Source: Oscillospiraceae bacterium
Lineage (GTDB): Bacteria; Bacillota; Clostridia; Oscillospirales; Ruminococcaceae
Reading direction: 5' to 3'
NCBI GenBank assembly: GCA_022768545.1
Contig: JALELV010000078.1
Span: forward strand, 1-64,000
Length of the DNA stretch: 64,000 bases
Shown here: one piece after another, positions 28,309-43,241 of the stretch
How positions within the stretch are numbered: the stretch's first letter is position 1
Layout of the letters: each line of letters starts with the position of its first letter
Made by a program: the position numbers and the translations under genes
The notes under the pieces: generated by a model
Told to the model about the DNA's origin: nothing
What the model saw: only the letters and a program-made list of their open reading frames with translations
The model's database searches: none

Positions 28309-28857
28309 TTATTTGCCAAAATATCTCTTCAGCATACCCTCAAAAGCGCAACCGTGCCGGGCTTCGTCCTTGGCCATCTCGTGAACGGTATCGTGGATGG
28401 CATCCAGACCCAGCTCTTTGGCCTTTGCAGCCAACTTCTTTTTGCCGTCGCACGCGCCGTTCTCAGCGGCCACACGCAGCTCGAGGTTCTTTTTGGTATC
28501 GGCATTGACTACCTCGCCCAGCAGCTCCGCAAACTTGGCGGCGTGCTCAGCCTCTTCCCAGGCGGCCTTCTCGTAATACAGGCCAACCTCAGGGTAACCC
28601 TCGCGATGAGCCTGGCGGGCCATAGCCAGATACATACCGACCTCGGTGCACTCGCCGGTGAAGTTCATTCTCAGGCCCTCAATGATCTCGGGATCCACAC
28701 CGGCGGCCACGCCGATGCGGTGCTCGTCCGCCCAGGCGGTGGCGCCGGAGACCTGCTCCTCAAACTTGGAAGCGGGGGCCTTGCACTGCGGGCAGAACTC
28801 GGGGGGCTCTTTTCCGGTATAAACATAACCACAGATGGTGCAGATATAAGTTTTCAT
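28309..28857 (-). CDS. Reverse rubrerythrin (rubredoxin domain first)
   Basis: A 182-aa non-heme iron protein that reduces hydrogen peroxide and oxygen in anaerobes. The rubredoxin domain is at the N-terminus (CTICGYVY and CPQCKAP, residues 6-30), the opposite order to classical rubrerythrin. The ferritin-like di-iron domain follows, with [19 protein letters not shown] and [11 protein letters not shown] supplying the Glu and His ligands. The ATG at 28855-28857 follows AAGGAGG. The promoter has a 17-bp palindrome in its spacer, which suggests control by a repressor, perhaps a peroxide or redox sensor. Confidence 0.93.
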
Positions 28858-28988: not shown

Positions 28989-29774
28989 TTATTTCTGATG
29001 GCACGCCAGCAGCGCCTTTTTTGCTCTCTCCTGCTCCTCCGGGCCCATGGGGTCGTCACATTTATATTTTACGATATAACGCAGCATCTCTGCCCCTTTT
29101 CCCGGAACAAACGCATCGCCGCGGTGGAAATTGACATTGAGCCTGATATAGGAATTGCTGAAATACACCATTGGTTTTACTTTGGCCGAAACCCCCGCAT
29201 CCTTGAGGATACTTTCCACCGTGCGGGCATGTCCCATCACCTGCTTCAGCGGATTGTAAAGCTCCCGTCGCTGTACTTCCCCGCCCTTGATCTTGCGGGA
29301 GTGAACCAGGTTGTTGCTTTCCCGGCGGCCGGAGACCACGCCCGCCACGTTTTTGGTCTCGATCAGGAAAATCCCATTGGGGCCGATCACGCAGTGGTCA
29401 ATCTGGCTTTTGTATCCGTTGTGCTGAAGGTTCAGGTCGGATACCACCGTATAATTGGCCGGCAGGTCTTTCAGCAGCTGCACACCGCGGTTTTCCCCCG
29501 AAAGGCCGGAGTTTAAAATTTCCACCTGCTTTTTGATCTGCCTGCACAAAATAAAAAAGAGAAAATAAAAAGCGGCCGCCGCAGTGCTGAAAACTGTAGC
29601 CTGCCAGTGCAGGGAACGCATCAAAAAGCTGGGGACCGGGGCTGTAAGCAGCAGCCCCGCCATAAGAACGGAGGCCGCAAGAGCACCTTTGCTGAAAATC
29701 AGTTTGTCCCGCTGTGCGGAAAGCGAGTTCTGCGGGTTCGCTTTGATCATTTTTGCCAAACACTTCACCGTCAC
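28989..29774 (-). CDS. NERD-domain membrane protein
   Basis: A 261-aa protein. Two hydrophobic helices lie at about residues 31-52 and 60-78. A NERD (nuclease-related) domain follows from about residue 90: GVQLLKDLPANYTVVSDL, then QIDHCVIGPNGIFLIETKN (residues 121-139), with the Asp and Glu-x-Lys pattern of the PD-(D/E)xK nuclease fold. Enzyme activity is not shown for most such proteins. The start is uncertain: GTG 29772-29774 or ATG 29748-29750. A strong promoter, a hairpin leader and a possible short upstream reading frame precede it. Confidence 0.8.
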   Translation of the reverse strand: MTVKCLAKMIKANPQNSLSAQRDKLIFSKGALAASVLMAGLLLTAPVPSFLMRSLHWQATVFSTAAAAFYFLFFILCRQIKKQVEILNSGLSGENRGVQLLKDLPANYTVVSDLNLQHNGYKSQIDHCVIGPNGIFLIETKNVAGVVSGRRESNNLVHSRKIKGGEVQRRELYNPLKQVMGHARTVESILKDAGVSAKVKPMVYFSNSYIRLNVNFHRGDAFVPGKGAEMLRYIVKYKCDDPMGPEEQERAKKALLACHQK

Positions 29775-29936: not shown

Positions 29937-29965
29937 ATTATACCACTTTCTAAACTTGCCGTCAA
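29937..29965 (-). promoter_or_regulatory. Sigma-A promoter of the NERD gene
   Basis: Minus-strand TTGACG (29960-29965), a 17-nt spacer and a perfect TATAAT (29937-29942). It predicts a leader of about 155 nt. The -35 is one base from the -35 of a divergent sigma-G-like promoter. Confidence 0.75.
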
Positions 29966-29966
29966 A

Positions 29967-29996
29967 AGAATAATCAAAAAGTTTTTTCAAATACTA
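29967..29996 (+). promoter_or_regulatory. Sigma-G-like sporulation promoter
   Basis: AGAATA (29967-29972), a 17-nt spacer and AATACTA (29990-29996) match the sigma-G consensus TGAATA/CATACTA at 5 of 6 and 6 of 7 positions. The predicted transcription start is near 30003, only a few bases before the ribosome site, as in genes for small acid-soluble spore proteins. Confidence 0.55.
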
Positions 29997-30020
29997 AGAG
30001 AGCAAAGGAGGTGAAGTACC

Positions 30021-30158
30021 ATGGCCAATAACGAGCAGAACAACAGAAACAGCCAGAACAGCCAGAACAACCAGAACAATCAGCAGAAGCAGAGCCAGAA
30101 CAACAAGAAAGAGGAGCAGAACAAAAAGCAGAACTCCTCCAACCGATTCGAAAACTGA
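30021..30158 (+). CDS. Small Asn/Gln/Lys-rich protein, probable spore protein
   Basis: A 45-aa hydrophilic protein made almost only of Asn, Gln, Lys, Ser and Glu (MANNEQNNRNSQNSQNNQ..., ending SSNRFEN). The ATG at 30021 has a perfect AGGAGGTG site 7 nt upstream. The composition recalls gamma-type small acid-soluble spore proteins, which serve as amino-acid stores, and the upstream promoter is sigma-G-like. There is no sequence-level proof of that family. It is one of only four plus-strand genes I call and is too short for many gene finders. Confidence 0.7.
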   Translation: MANNEQNNRNSQNSQNNQNNQQKQSQNNKKEEQNKKQNSSNRFEN

Positions 30159-30230
30159 GCAGGCTTTCCCATAAGGCCGGTTATCTGTCAGAACGGAAAT
30201 ATTTTTCTGCCTGAACATAGGCGGCCGCAC

Positions 30231-30270
30231 AGAGAGGAGAAGGATGGCGACATCCCTCTCCTCTCTTTTT
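30231..30270 (+). terminator. Terminator of the small Asn/Gln-rich gene
   Basis: A 16-bp stem with one mismatch (30231-30246 with 30251-30266), a GCGA loop and TTTTT on the plus strand. It also lies 2 nt beyond the minus-strand ABC exporter stop codon, but the T-run suits the plus strand. Confidence 0.6.
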
Positions 30271-30272
30271 GG

Positions 30273-32102
30273 TCACGCGATATTGCCGGCCGAAAACTGG
30301 CTTTGATACAGCTGTGCGTAAAACCCGCCTTTGTCCAAAAGCTCCTGATGGCTGCCTGTCTCCACGATATCACCGTCCCGGAGCACCAGAATCCTGTCGG
30401 CGTCCCGAATGGTGGAAAGCCGGTGTGCAATGATAAAACTGGTCCTCCCTTTCATCAGGGTCTCCATGGCTTTCTGGATGAGCACCTCCGTCCGGGTATC
30501 CACCGAGCTGGTGGCCTCGTCCAGGATCATGATCTCCGGATCTGCCAGGAGGGCGCGGGCAATGGTAAGCAGCTGCCGCTGCCCCTGGGAAATGTTGGTG
30601 GCGTCCTCGTTGAGCACCATTCCATAGCCTCCGGGCAGCTGTTTGATGAAGGTATGGGCGTGGGCGGACTTAGCCGCCGCCACGATCTCTTCCTCCGTGG
30701 CGTCCAGCCTGCCGTAGGCGATGTTATCGCGGATGGTCCCGCCGAAGAGCCAGGTGTCCTGAAGCACCATGCCGAACAGTTCCCGGAGGCCGTACCGGGT
30801 CATCCGGGTGATGTCCACCCCGTCTATGGTGATCCGCCCGCCGTTCAGCTCATAAAACCGCAGCAGGAGGTTTACGATCGTTGTTTTCCCAGCTCCAGTG
30901 GGCCCCACAATGGCGATCTTGCTGCCGCTTGGAATATCAATATTCAAATCGTGGATCAGGATCTTATCCTGACTGTAGCCAAAGCGCACATGCTCAAAGC
31001 TCACAGCCCCCCGGGCGTTTTGGAGCAGAACGGGGTGCTTTTCCTCCGGGATCTCCTCCGTTTCATCCAACATCTCAAAAATGCGCTCCGCCGCCGCAAG
31101 GGTAGACTGAAGCATATTCATGATGTTGGCCGTCTGGGAGATAGGCTGGGTAAATTGCCGCATGTACTGCACAAAGGACTGGATCTCCCCCACCAGGAGC
31201 TTCCCGGCGATGACCGTCAGTCCGCCTGTCACGCAGACAAGGAGATATCCGATGTTTCCGATAAACCCCACGATCGGCATCATGATGCTGGAGAGAAACT
31301 GCGCTTTCCAGCCGCACCGGTAAAGACGGGTATTGATCTCCTCAAACTCCTCCGTCACCTTATCCTGGCGGTTAAAAGCCTTCACCACATTGTGCCCGGA
31401 GAACATCTCCTCCACATGGCCGTTCAGGTCCCCAATCTCCTTCTGCTGGGCCCGGAACCATCTCTGGGATTTTTTTACGATGAACATACTGGAGAACAGC
31501 GAAAGCGGAAGGGTCAATACAGCAATCAGCGTCATTAACGGGCTGATAGAGAGCATCATGATAAAGATGCCGATCACCGTGGTGACCGACGTGATCACCT
31601 GTGTGACACCCTGCTGCAGGGTGTTCTGCACCGTATCCACATCGTTGGTGATGCGGCTGAGCACCTCGCCGTTGGTTTTGGTGTCAAAATAGCGCAGGGG
31701 CAGGCGGCTGATCTTCTCATCCACCGCCCGGCGCAGGTCATACATCGTCCGCTGGGCCACACCGGCCATCAAAAACTGCTCCAGATATTTAAATGCGGCG
31801 TTTAGTACATACAGCGTTCCCAGAGTGAGTAGAATCTTTACGATCAGTTCAAAATTTATGCCGCTGCCAGGCTCCTGAACGCCCCGGAACAGCTCACTGG
31901 TCACCATCCCCTGCACCAGCGGGGAAAAAATAGACGCCAGTGTGGAGATCAGCGAAAATATTATGGCCAAAACAAAGCCGGTTTTATATTTTCCCACATA
32001 GGAAAACAAACGCAGGGTCGTTTCCTTCATATTTTTGGGCTTTTCGCCCTCCATCTGCGGGCCGCGCCTCGGCCCGCCCATCGGTCCTCCCATAGGCCCC
32101 AT
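30273..32102 (-). CDS. ABC exporter half-transporter (catalytically complete subunit)
   Basis: A 609-aa protein with six transmembrane helices fused to an ATPase domain. The N-terminus is rich in Gly, Pro and Met (MGPMGGPMGGPRRGP). The ATPase has Walker A GPTGAGKTTI, signature ISQGQRQLLTIARAL, Walker B MILDEATSSVD with catalytic Glu, and an H-loop His in IIAHRLSTI. The start is ATG 32100-32102, 7 nt after GGGGGAG. It lies 16 nt after the stop of the partner half-transporter, and the two probably form a heterodimeric multidrug-type exporter. Confidence 0.93.
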   Translation of the reverse strand: MGPMGGPMGGPRRGPQMEGEKPKNMKETTLRLFSYVGKYKTGFVLAIIFSLISTLASIFSPLVQGMVTSELFRGVQEPGSGINFELIVKILLTLGTLYVLNAAFKYLEQFLMAGVAQRTMYDLRRAVDEKISRLPLRYFDTKTNGEVLSRITNDVDTVQNTLQQGVTQVITSVTTVIGIFIMMLSISPLMTLIAVLTLPLSLFSSMFIVKKSQRWFRAQQKEIGDLNGHVEEMFSGHNVVKAFNRQDKVTEEFEEINTRLYRCGWKAQFLSSIMMPIVGFIGNIGYLLVCVTGGLTVIAGKLLVGEIQSFVQYMRQFTQPISQTANIMNMLQSTLAAAERIFEMLDETEEIPEEKHPVLLQNARGAVSFEHVRFGYSQDKILIHDLNIDIPSGSKIAIVGPTGAGKTTIVNLLLRFYELNGGRITIDGVDITRMTRYGLRELFGMVLQDTWLFGGTIRDNIAYGRLDATEEEIVAAAKSAHAHTFIKQLPGGYGMVLNEDATNISQGQRQLLTIARALLADPEIMILDEATSSVDTRTEVLIQKAMETLMKGRTSFIIAHRLSTIRDADRILVLRDGDIVETGSHQELLDKGGFYAQLYQSQFSAGNIA

Positions 32103-42626: not shown

Positions 42627-42683
42627 GTTGATATCCTCCTTCGCAATTCAAGTCGCTGTATGGGTCAGAGGTTATTATGAACC

Positions 42684-43241
42684 TCAGGCGCGCTCCATAT
42701 ACTCGCCGGTACGGGTATCCACGCGGATCATATCGCCCTCGTTGATAAACAGGGGAACATTGATCTGGGCTCCGGTCTCCAGGGTGGCGGGCTTCAGTGC
42801 ATTGGTGGCGGTGTTGCCTTTAAAGCCGGGGTCGGTCTGGGTCACCTGGAGCTCCATAAAGAAGGGGGGCTCCACACCGAAAATGTTGCCCTTGTAGGAC
42901 AGGACCTTTACATCGGTATTCTCTTTGACAAACTTGAAGTTGTCGCCCAAAGTGCTCTCGCTGATCGGGATATTCTCATAGGTCTCGTTGTCCATAAAGT
43001 AGTACAGGCCGCCGTCGCTGTACAGATACTGCATATCCCTGCGCTCTACATAAGCGGTGGGAAACTTATCGGTGGGGCTGAAGGTGCGCTCCACCACGGC
43101 GCCGGAAATGACGTTGCGGATCTTGGTGCGGACAAAAGCCGCCCCTTTCCCGGGTTTTACATGCTGAAACTCGATGATCTGGAACACATTGCCGTCCATG
43201 TCAAAGGTCACGCCGTTTCTGAAATCACCAGCAGAAATCAT
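42684..43241 (-). CDS. efp: Elongation factor P
   Basis: A 185-aa translation factor that relieves stalling at consecutive prolines. KOW-like N-terminal domain with the loop [14 protein letters not shown] (about residues 27-40), whose Lys is the tip residue near the peptidyl-transfer site, then two OB domains. The start is ATG 43239-43241 with GGAGG upstream; a longer frame begins without a site. No epmA or epmB modification genes are seen here, as in many Firmicutes. A strong promoter lies about 65-95 nt upstream. Confidence 0.96.

Follow-up and report, generated by a model that had tools for sequence, protein, structure and literature searches.

Within the window, the 64,000-nucleotide stretch of DNA analysed here, the forward strand carries a small open reading frame (ORF) preceded by its own expression signals. 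Read directly from the sequence, a -35 box AGAATA (29967-29972; core GAATA) is separated by a 17-nt spacer (29973-29989) from a -10 box AATACTA (29990-29996), which is followed by an A, and together these elements form a forespore-type promoter. A ribosome binding site, AAAGGAGGTGA, lies at 30004-30014, and the 45-codon ORF (30021-30158) runs from an ATG at 30021 to a TGA at 30156-30158. The first-pass annotation had described this arrangement of promoter, ribosome binding site and Asn/Gln-rich ORF, and its coordinates were confirmed exactly. The encoded 45-aa microprotein is rich in Asn, Gln, Lys and Ser (N16 Q10 K5 S5 E4 R2, with one each of A, F and M); Asn and Gln make up 58% of its residues, its net charge is +3, and it contains 1.82 nitrogen atoms per residue compared to 1.37 in the large ORFs of the window. 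In size and composition it does resemble gamma-type small acid-soluble spore proteins (SASPs), as had been noted at first pass. Searches with the ORF gave no match in Pfam (0 families at E-values up to 10), NCBIfam, PHROGs or PDB.

The divergent neighbour (28989-29774), which encodes a NERD domain by Pfam, is a separate unit from the microprotein gene and has a sigma-A-like promoter of its own on the reverse strand (29937-29965; TTGACG-N17-TATAAT, 11/12). Downstream, an intrinsic-terminator-like hairpin with a T run (30231-30271, forward strand) is common to the ORF and a convergent ABC transporter gene, and the region from 30222 to 30275 folds at -32.7 kcal/mol (z -5.87). Because this hairpin lies between the ORF and the convergent gene and the NERD gene is served by its own promoter, the ORF looks like a one-gene transcription unit. 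A rubrerythrin gene (28309-28857, reverse strand) is found ~1.2 kb upstream of the ORF in both genomes of the window's genus, and in another genus (L006) the distance from a rubrerythrin gene to the Asn/Gln-rich ORF downstream of it is ~0.3 kb.

In G001, the one genome compared from the same genus, a 52-aa ORF is flanked by the same neighbours as in the window. In the alignment of the two upstream regions, CCGTCAAAAGAATAATCAAA and TCAAATACTAAGAG are kept and both promoter boxes are identical, while the spacer has diverged and is longer by one base. Since the first kept block doubles at its left end as the -35 box of the divergent gene, evidence for the forward promoter comes only from the right end of that block and from the second block. 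The ribosome binding site is identical between the two genomes, and in the terminator stem two pairs have changed from G-C to A-T in the relative, with both sides altered. Comparison of the two ORFs gave a dN/dS of 0.23 over 44 codons; by this measure, purifying selection acts on the reading frame of the window ORF. Absence of the ORF or promoter from relatives, which the first-pass annotation had named as evidence against its reading, was looked for, and conservation was found instead.

Taken alone, the forespore motif is at chance level in its own genome and shows no enrichment: GNATA-N17-MATAMTA occurs at 5 sites in the whole 2.1-Mb genome and at 7 in a reversed control, and the own-genome count was rejected as evidence for the promoter. 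Even so, by arithmetic only about one ORF in 10^4 would be expected to have such a motif in the 100 nt preceding it. Scored with a weight matrix whose training set was 26 alpha/beta-SASP promoters from the same family and which was not fitted to the Asn/Gln-rich ORFs, the window promoter reached 12.6 (training range 10.6-20.7); it is the only site scoring 10.6 or more on the forward strand of the 64-kb window, and the reverse strand has two. A BLAST-type search with the ORF in 120 genomes returned its own match and one weak match with internal stops. This result and the motif counts that match the reversed control are what would be expected of a low-complexity ORF that arose by chance and happens to follow a promoter-like sequence, but such an explanation is very improbable given the purifying selection on the frame, the promoter and terminator conserved in the relative, and a recurrence across the class with a spacer-specific promoter match, which is set out below.

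The BLAST-type search was rejected as a test of conservation since the sequence is of low complexity, and for the same reason a codon-pattern search was used instead, which required a ribosome binding site, an ATG and then a run of 12-14 MRN codons and ignored the promoter. This pattern, which superseded an earlier narrower one applied to 148 genomes, was run on overlapping sets of 396 family, 394 order and 391 class genomes. ORFs were kept in 17/396, 18/394 and 27/391 of these genomes, respectively, and these counts are lower bounds because the pattern is strict. In all, 55 distinct Asn/Gln-rich microprotein ORFs from 33 genera were kept (17 from the family, 14 from the order and 24 from the class search). 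In the family search, 7 of 24 matched genomes were dropped: G150 for a 104-aa protein that is N-rich at its start only, and G293, G413, G261, G342, G423 and G054 for another frame or composition. The order search lost 6 of 24, five being Lys/Arg-rich or off frame (G699, G716, G660, G511, G159) and one (G692) opening a longer Gly/Pro-rich ORF, as well as 4 repeats of the family search. In the class search 5 of 32 were dropped (G1021, G1079, G159, G892, G1091), along with a further match in G934 (L128) and 3 repeats. Three class-search ORFs were added late, one of which has the promoter, and the composition and GPR script covered the first 52 only.

Those 52 ORFs are 26-72 aa long (median 40.5) and, pooled, consist of 44% Asn and 29% Gln (73% together). 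In 14 pairs of relatives dN/dS ranged from 0 to 0.23, with saturated dS printed as 0, and ten representative ORFs gave no meaningful family match. The same-genus synteny, the selection and the recurrence in Clostridia bear out the earlier view of the window ORF as a real conserved gene. A link between the ORF and the presence of an alpha/beta SASP (15/17 genomes with the ORF compared to 264/379 without) was rejected as not significant (p 0.17).

Upstream of the group, the SASP-trained matrix gave scores of 6 or more, a cut-off chosen once the first 17 ORFs had been scored, in 41 of 52 regions, compared to 16% of AT-matched windows from the same loci; across 60 rounds, Markov sequences gave 9.1 on average and 18 at most. 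We take the consensus to be GHATR-N17/18-CAHWHTA with at most one mismatch; it was not fitted to these ORFs. It was present in 44/52 upstream regions, whereas Markov sequences averaged 3.1 (maximum 7) and 5.1% of the local windows carried it; with the three late ORFs the count was 45/55, leaving 10/55 with no match. When the spacer was set to 11-12, 13-14, 15-16, 19-20, 21-22 or 23-24, only 5-10 of the 55 matched. Control genes, i.e., other genes in the same loci with a ribosome binding site and 90 aa or more, matched in 9/146 cases (4/81 at 55% AT or more), and at least one of the nine, that in L033, is sigG itself; the Fisher p for ORFs against control genes is 2e-21, a value not corrected for relatedness. 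At least one promoter-positive ORF was found in 24 of the 33 genera. Both the matrix and the consensus counts bear out in silico a forespore-type (sigma-G/sigma-F) promoter, in line with the sigma-G-like one of the first-pass annotation. A sigma-A promoter for the group was rejected (sigma-A-like sites before 11/55 ORFs and 36/146 control genes). The alpha/beta-SASP genes of the family (L043-L072, L003) have in common a long leader whose first bases, immediately downstream of the -10 box, are (G)CAAACGC, as seen in the 26 full-length promoters, which were gathered using that word as an anchor. In three species of one genus (L017, L018, L019), a short GCGG...CCGC inverted repeat, perhaps a 5' hairpin, lies between promoter and ribosome binding site.

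The gene context of several loci is also sporulation-related. The ORF immediately follows sigG in L032 and L033, which represent two species of the same genus, and immediately precedes spoIVB in L110-L116 (two genera of one family), with family models for these neighbours at L032, L111 and L116; in L117 a sigma-factor-like stretch 32% identical to SigG lies upstream of the ORF. An rRNA as common neighbour of L016, L032-L034, L082 and L095 was discarded, having no Rfam match. Compared to neighbouring ORFs, the microprotein ORFs use AAC more at 43/54 loci, including 19/19 AT-rich loci, and CAG more at 34/46 loci, a preference that resembles that of highly expressed genes and suggests a similar expression here.

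The host genome has Spo0A and one alpha/beta-SASP gene, which was the only gene returned by the PF00269 search and is not the window ORF. It also encodes a full-length SigG-like sigma factor scoring 425 bits (next best, 179 bits), under the 457-bit cut-off of TIGR02850. The SigG of a relative passes NF006071 (420 bits; cut-off 372) and reaches only 403 bits with TIGR02850, so little weight is placed on the host's shortfall.

In Clostridioides difficile, according to one study, sigma-F promoters are distinguished by a conserved G preceding the -10 box and sigma-G promoters by an A following it (PMC3789822). By that rule the window promoter, which has no preceding G and has an A after the -10 box, is sigma-G-like. 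Across the 45 promoters of the group the flanking bases are mixed, with a G directly before the -10 box in 14 and an A directly after it in 12, so only the forespore type is claimed for the group; the regulons of the two factors are described as overlapping in a further paper (PMC7438776). Because the promoter is conserved in the relative, the group match is specific to spacing, the matrix fits and some ORFs adjoin sigG or spoIVB, expression of the microprotein gene in the forespore is very likely, as judged in silico.

Gamma-type SASPs such as SspE (PF04259, Bacilli) have an Asn/Gln-rich composition and contain GPR cleavage sites. Like them, the microproteins are small and soluble, with a forespore-type promoter and no expected fold; they differ in being shorter, far more biased in composition and found in Clostridia. 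PF04259 did not match the window ORF or any of 100 relatives, with a positive B. subtilis control, and a GPR-type cleavage site, searched for as a sequence pattern, occurred in 0/52 ORFs. Membership of the SspE/gamma-SASP family, raised at first pass, was thus not upheld, there being no Pfam match and no GPR site, and a gamma-SASP by descent is not supported by the sequences; that the microprotein works like one is likely. Two of the Asn/Gln-rich ORFs, L108 and L109, have an extended tail containing TEFSED and VQFSEE, which by eye are like a distant form of GPR cleavage site. Two papers report clostridia to be without gamma-type SASPs (PMC3533761, PMC8452069), and the latter describes the gamma-SASP as a hypothesised amino-acid reservoir. 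With gamma-SASPs reported missing from Clostridia, the microprotein may be a functional counterpart, i.e., an amino-acid or nitrogen reserve.

We propose that sigma-G, alone or together with sigma-F, would turn on a single-gene unit in the forespore, and that the product of this unit, predicted to be a small, disordered and mildly basic chain rich in Asn and Gln, would accumulate in the spore core. There it could be an expendable store of amino acids and amide nitrogen, to be spent at germination and outgrowth. The gene, the selection on its protein, the promoter type, the class-wide recurrence and the codon bias are established in silico. A spore role, as the first-pass annotation had suggested, is probable, and accumulation in the spore core is rather likely; the chances of a reserve function appear evenly balanced. 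The absent GPR site weakens the reserve reading, and breakdown of the microprotein would need other peptidases. Taken whole, a forespore-made microprotein working as a gamma-SASP-like reserve is the best explanation, and we lean slightly towards it.

The same promoter evidence would serve equally for a forespore hydrophilin, a disordered chain that shields core proteins or membranes from dehydration and heat and is not food. The microproteins are strongly hydrophilic and nearly devoid of hydrophobic residues (35/52 ORFs have no W, F or Y), and their sequence does not separate this function from that of a reserve, but the extreme Asn/Gln bias of the pooled ORFs would seem unnecessary for it, and we consider a hydrophilin unlikely. 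SASPs of other kinds bind DNA, and the net positive charge (+2 or more in 47/52 ORFs) would suit a minor SASP that coats DNA or RNA. Set against such a nucleic-acid-binding role are the low charge per residue and the lack of both a Pfam match and the alpha/beta-SASP motif, which make it quite improbable. The alpha/beta-type SASP genes (PF00269) are alike in that the same promoter matrix fits and the host genomes are mostly the same, whereas the microprotein has neither a PF00269 match nor the DNA-binding SASP motif.

Literature searches limited to the main texts of open-access papers listed no Asn/Gln-rich forespore microproteins in Clostridia; the nearest protein among them is GerG of C. difficile, described in one paper as an Asn-rich, low-complexity spore protein (PMC5241399). 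GerG differs in being longer, in its Asn/Met/Pro/Ser repeats, in being known so far from C. difficile only and in acting on the germinant-sensing Csp proteins. Its Asn-rich repeats are reported there to gel in vitro, and the comparable low-complexity composition of the microproteins raises the idea of a self-associating gel or condensate former that gives order or stiffness to part of the spore. That role is improbable, as the microproteins are much shorter than GerG and have many charged residues, and the same source describes the repeats as dispensable for GerG function.

Returning to the reserve, we tentatively suggest, at somewhat less than even confidence, that Clostridia own a class-wide counterpart of the gamma-SASPs in the form of GPR-less, Asn/Gln-rich forespore microproteins storing amino acids and amide nitrogen. 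Such microproteins would have gone unseen because they are small, are caught by low-complexity filters and have no profile models, and the case shows how masked low-complexity microproteins slip past family databases. If spores across Clostridia carry a separate Asn/Gln-rich protein, the source of fuel for their outgrowth becomes testable by deletion of a single tiny gene, and the microprotein could mark sporulation capacity in uncultured gut bacteria.

Two further sites were noted in the same genome. The only other well-placed SASP-matrix site in the window (42672-42702, reverse strand; GTATAT-17-CATAATAA, score 12.8) overlaps the end of an EF-P-like gene, so named by eye, and is followed by an acidic 150-aa ORF with CxxC motifs (42626-42174, reverse strand), possibly a second forespore gene. 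Elsewhere, on contig C47 (L100; 957-985, reverse strand), GTATA-N17-CATACTA and a ribosome binding site directly precede a 57-codon ORF (MSPKELLYLEDALGHEKF...), which has no Pfam match and is a further forespore-gene candidate.
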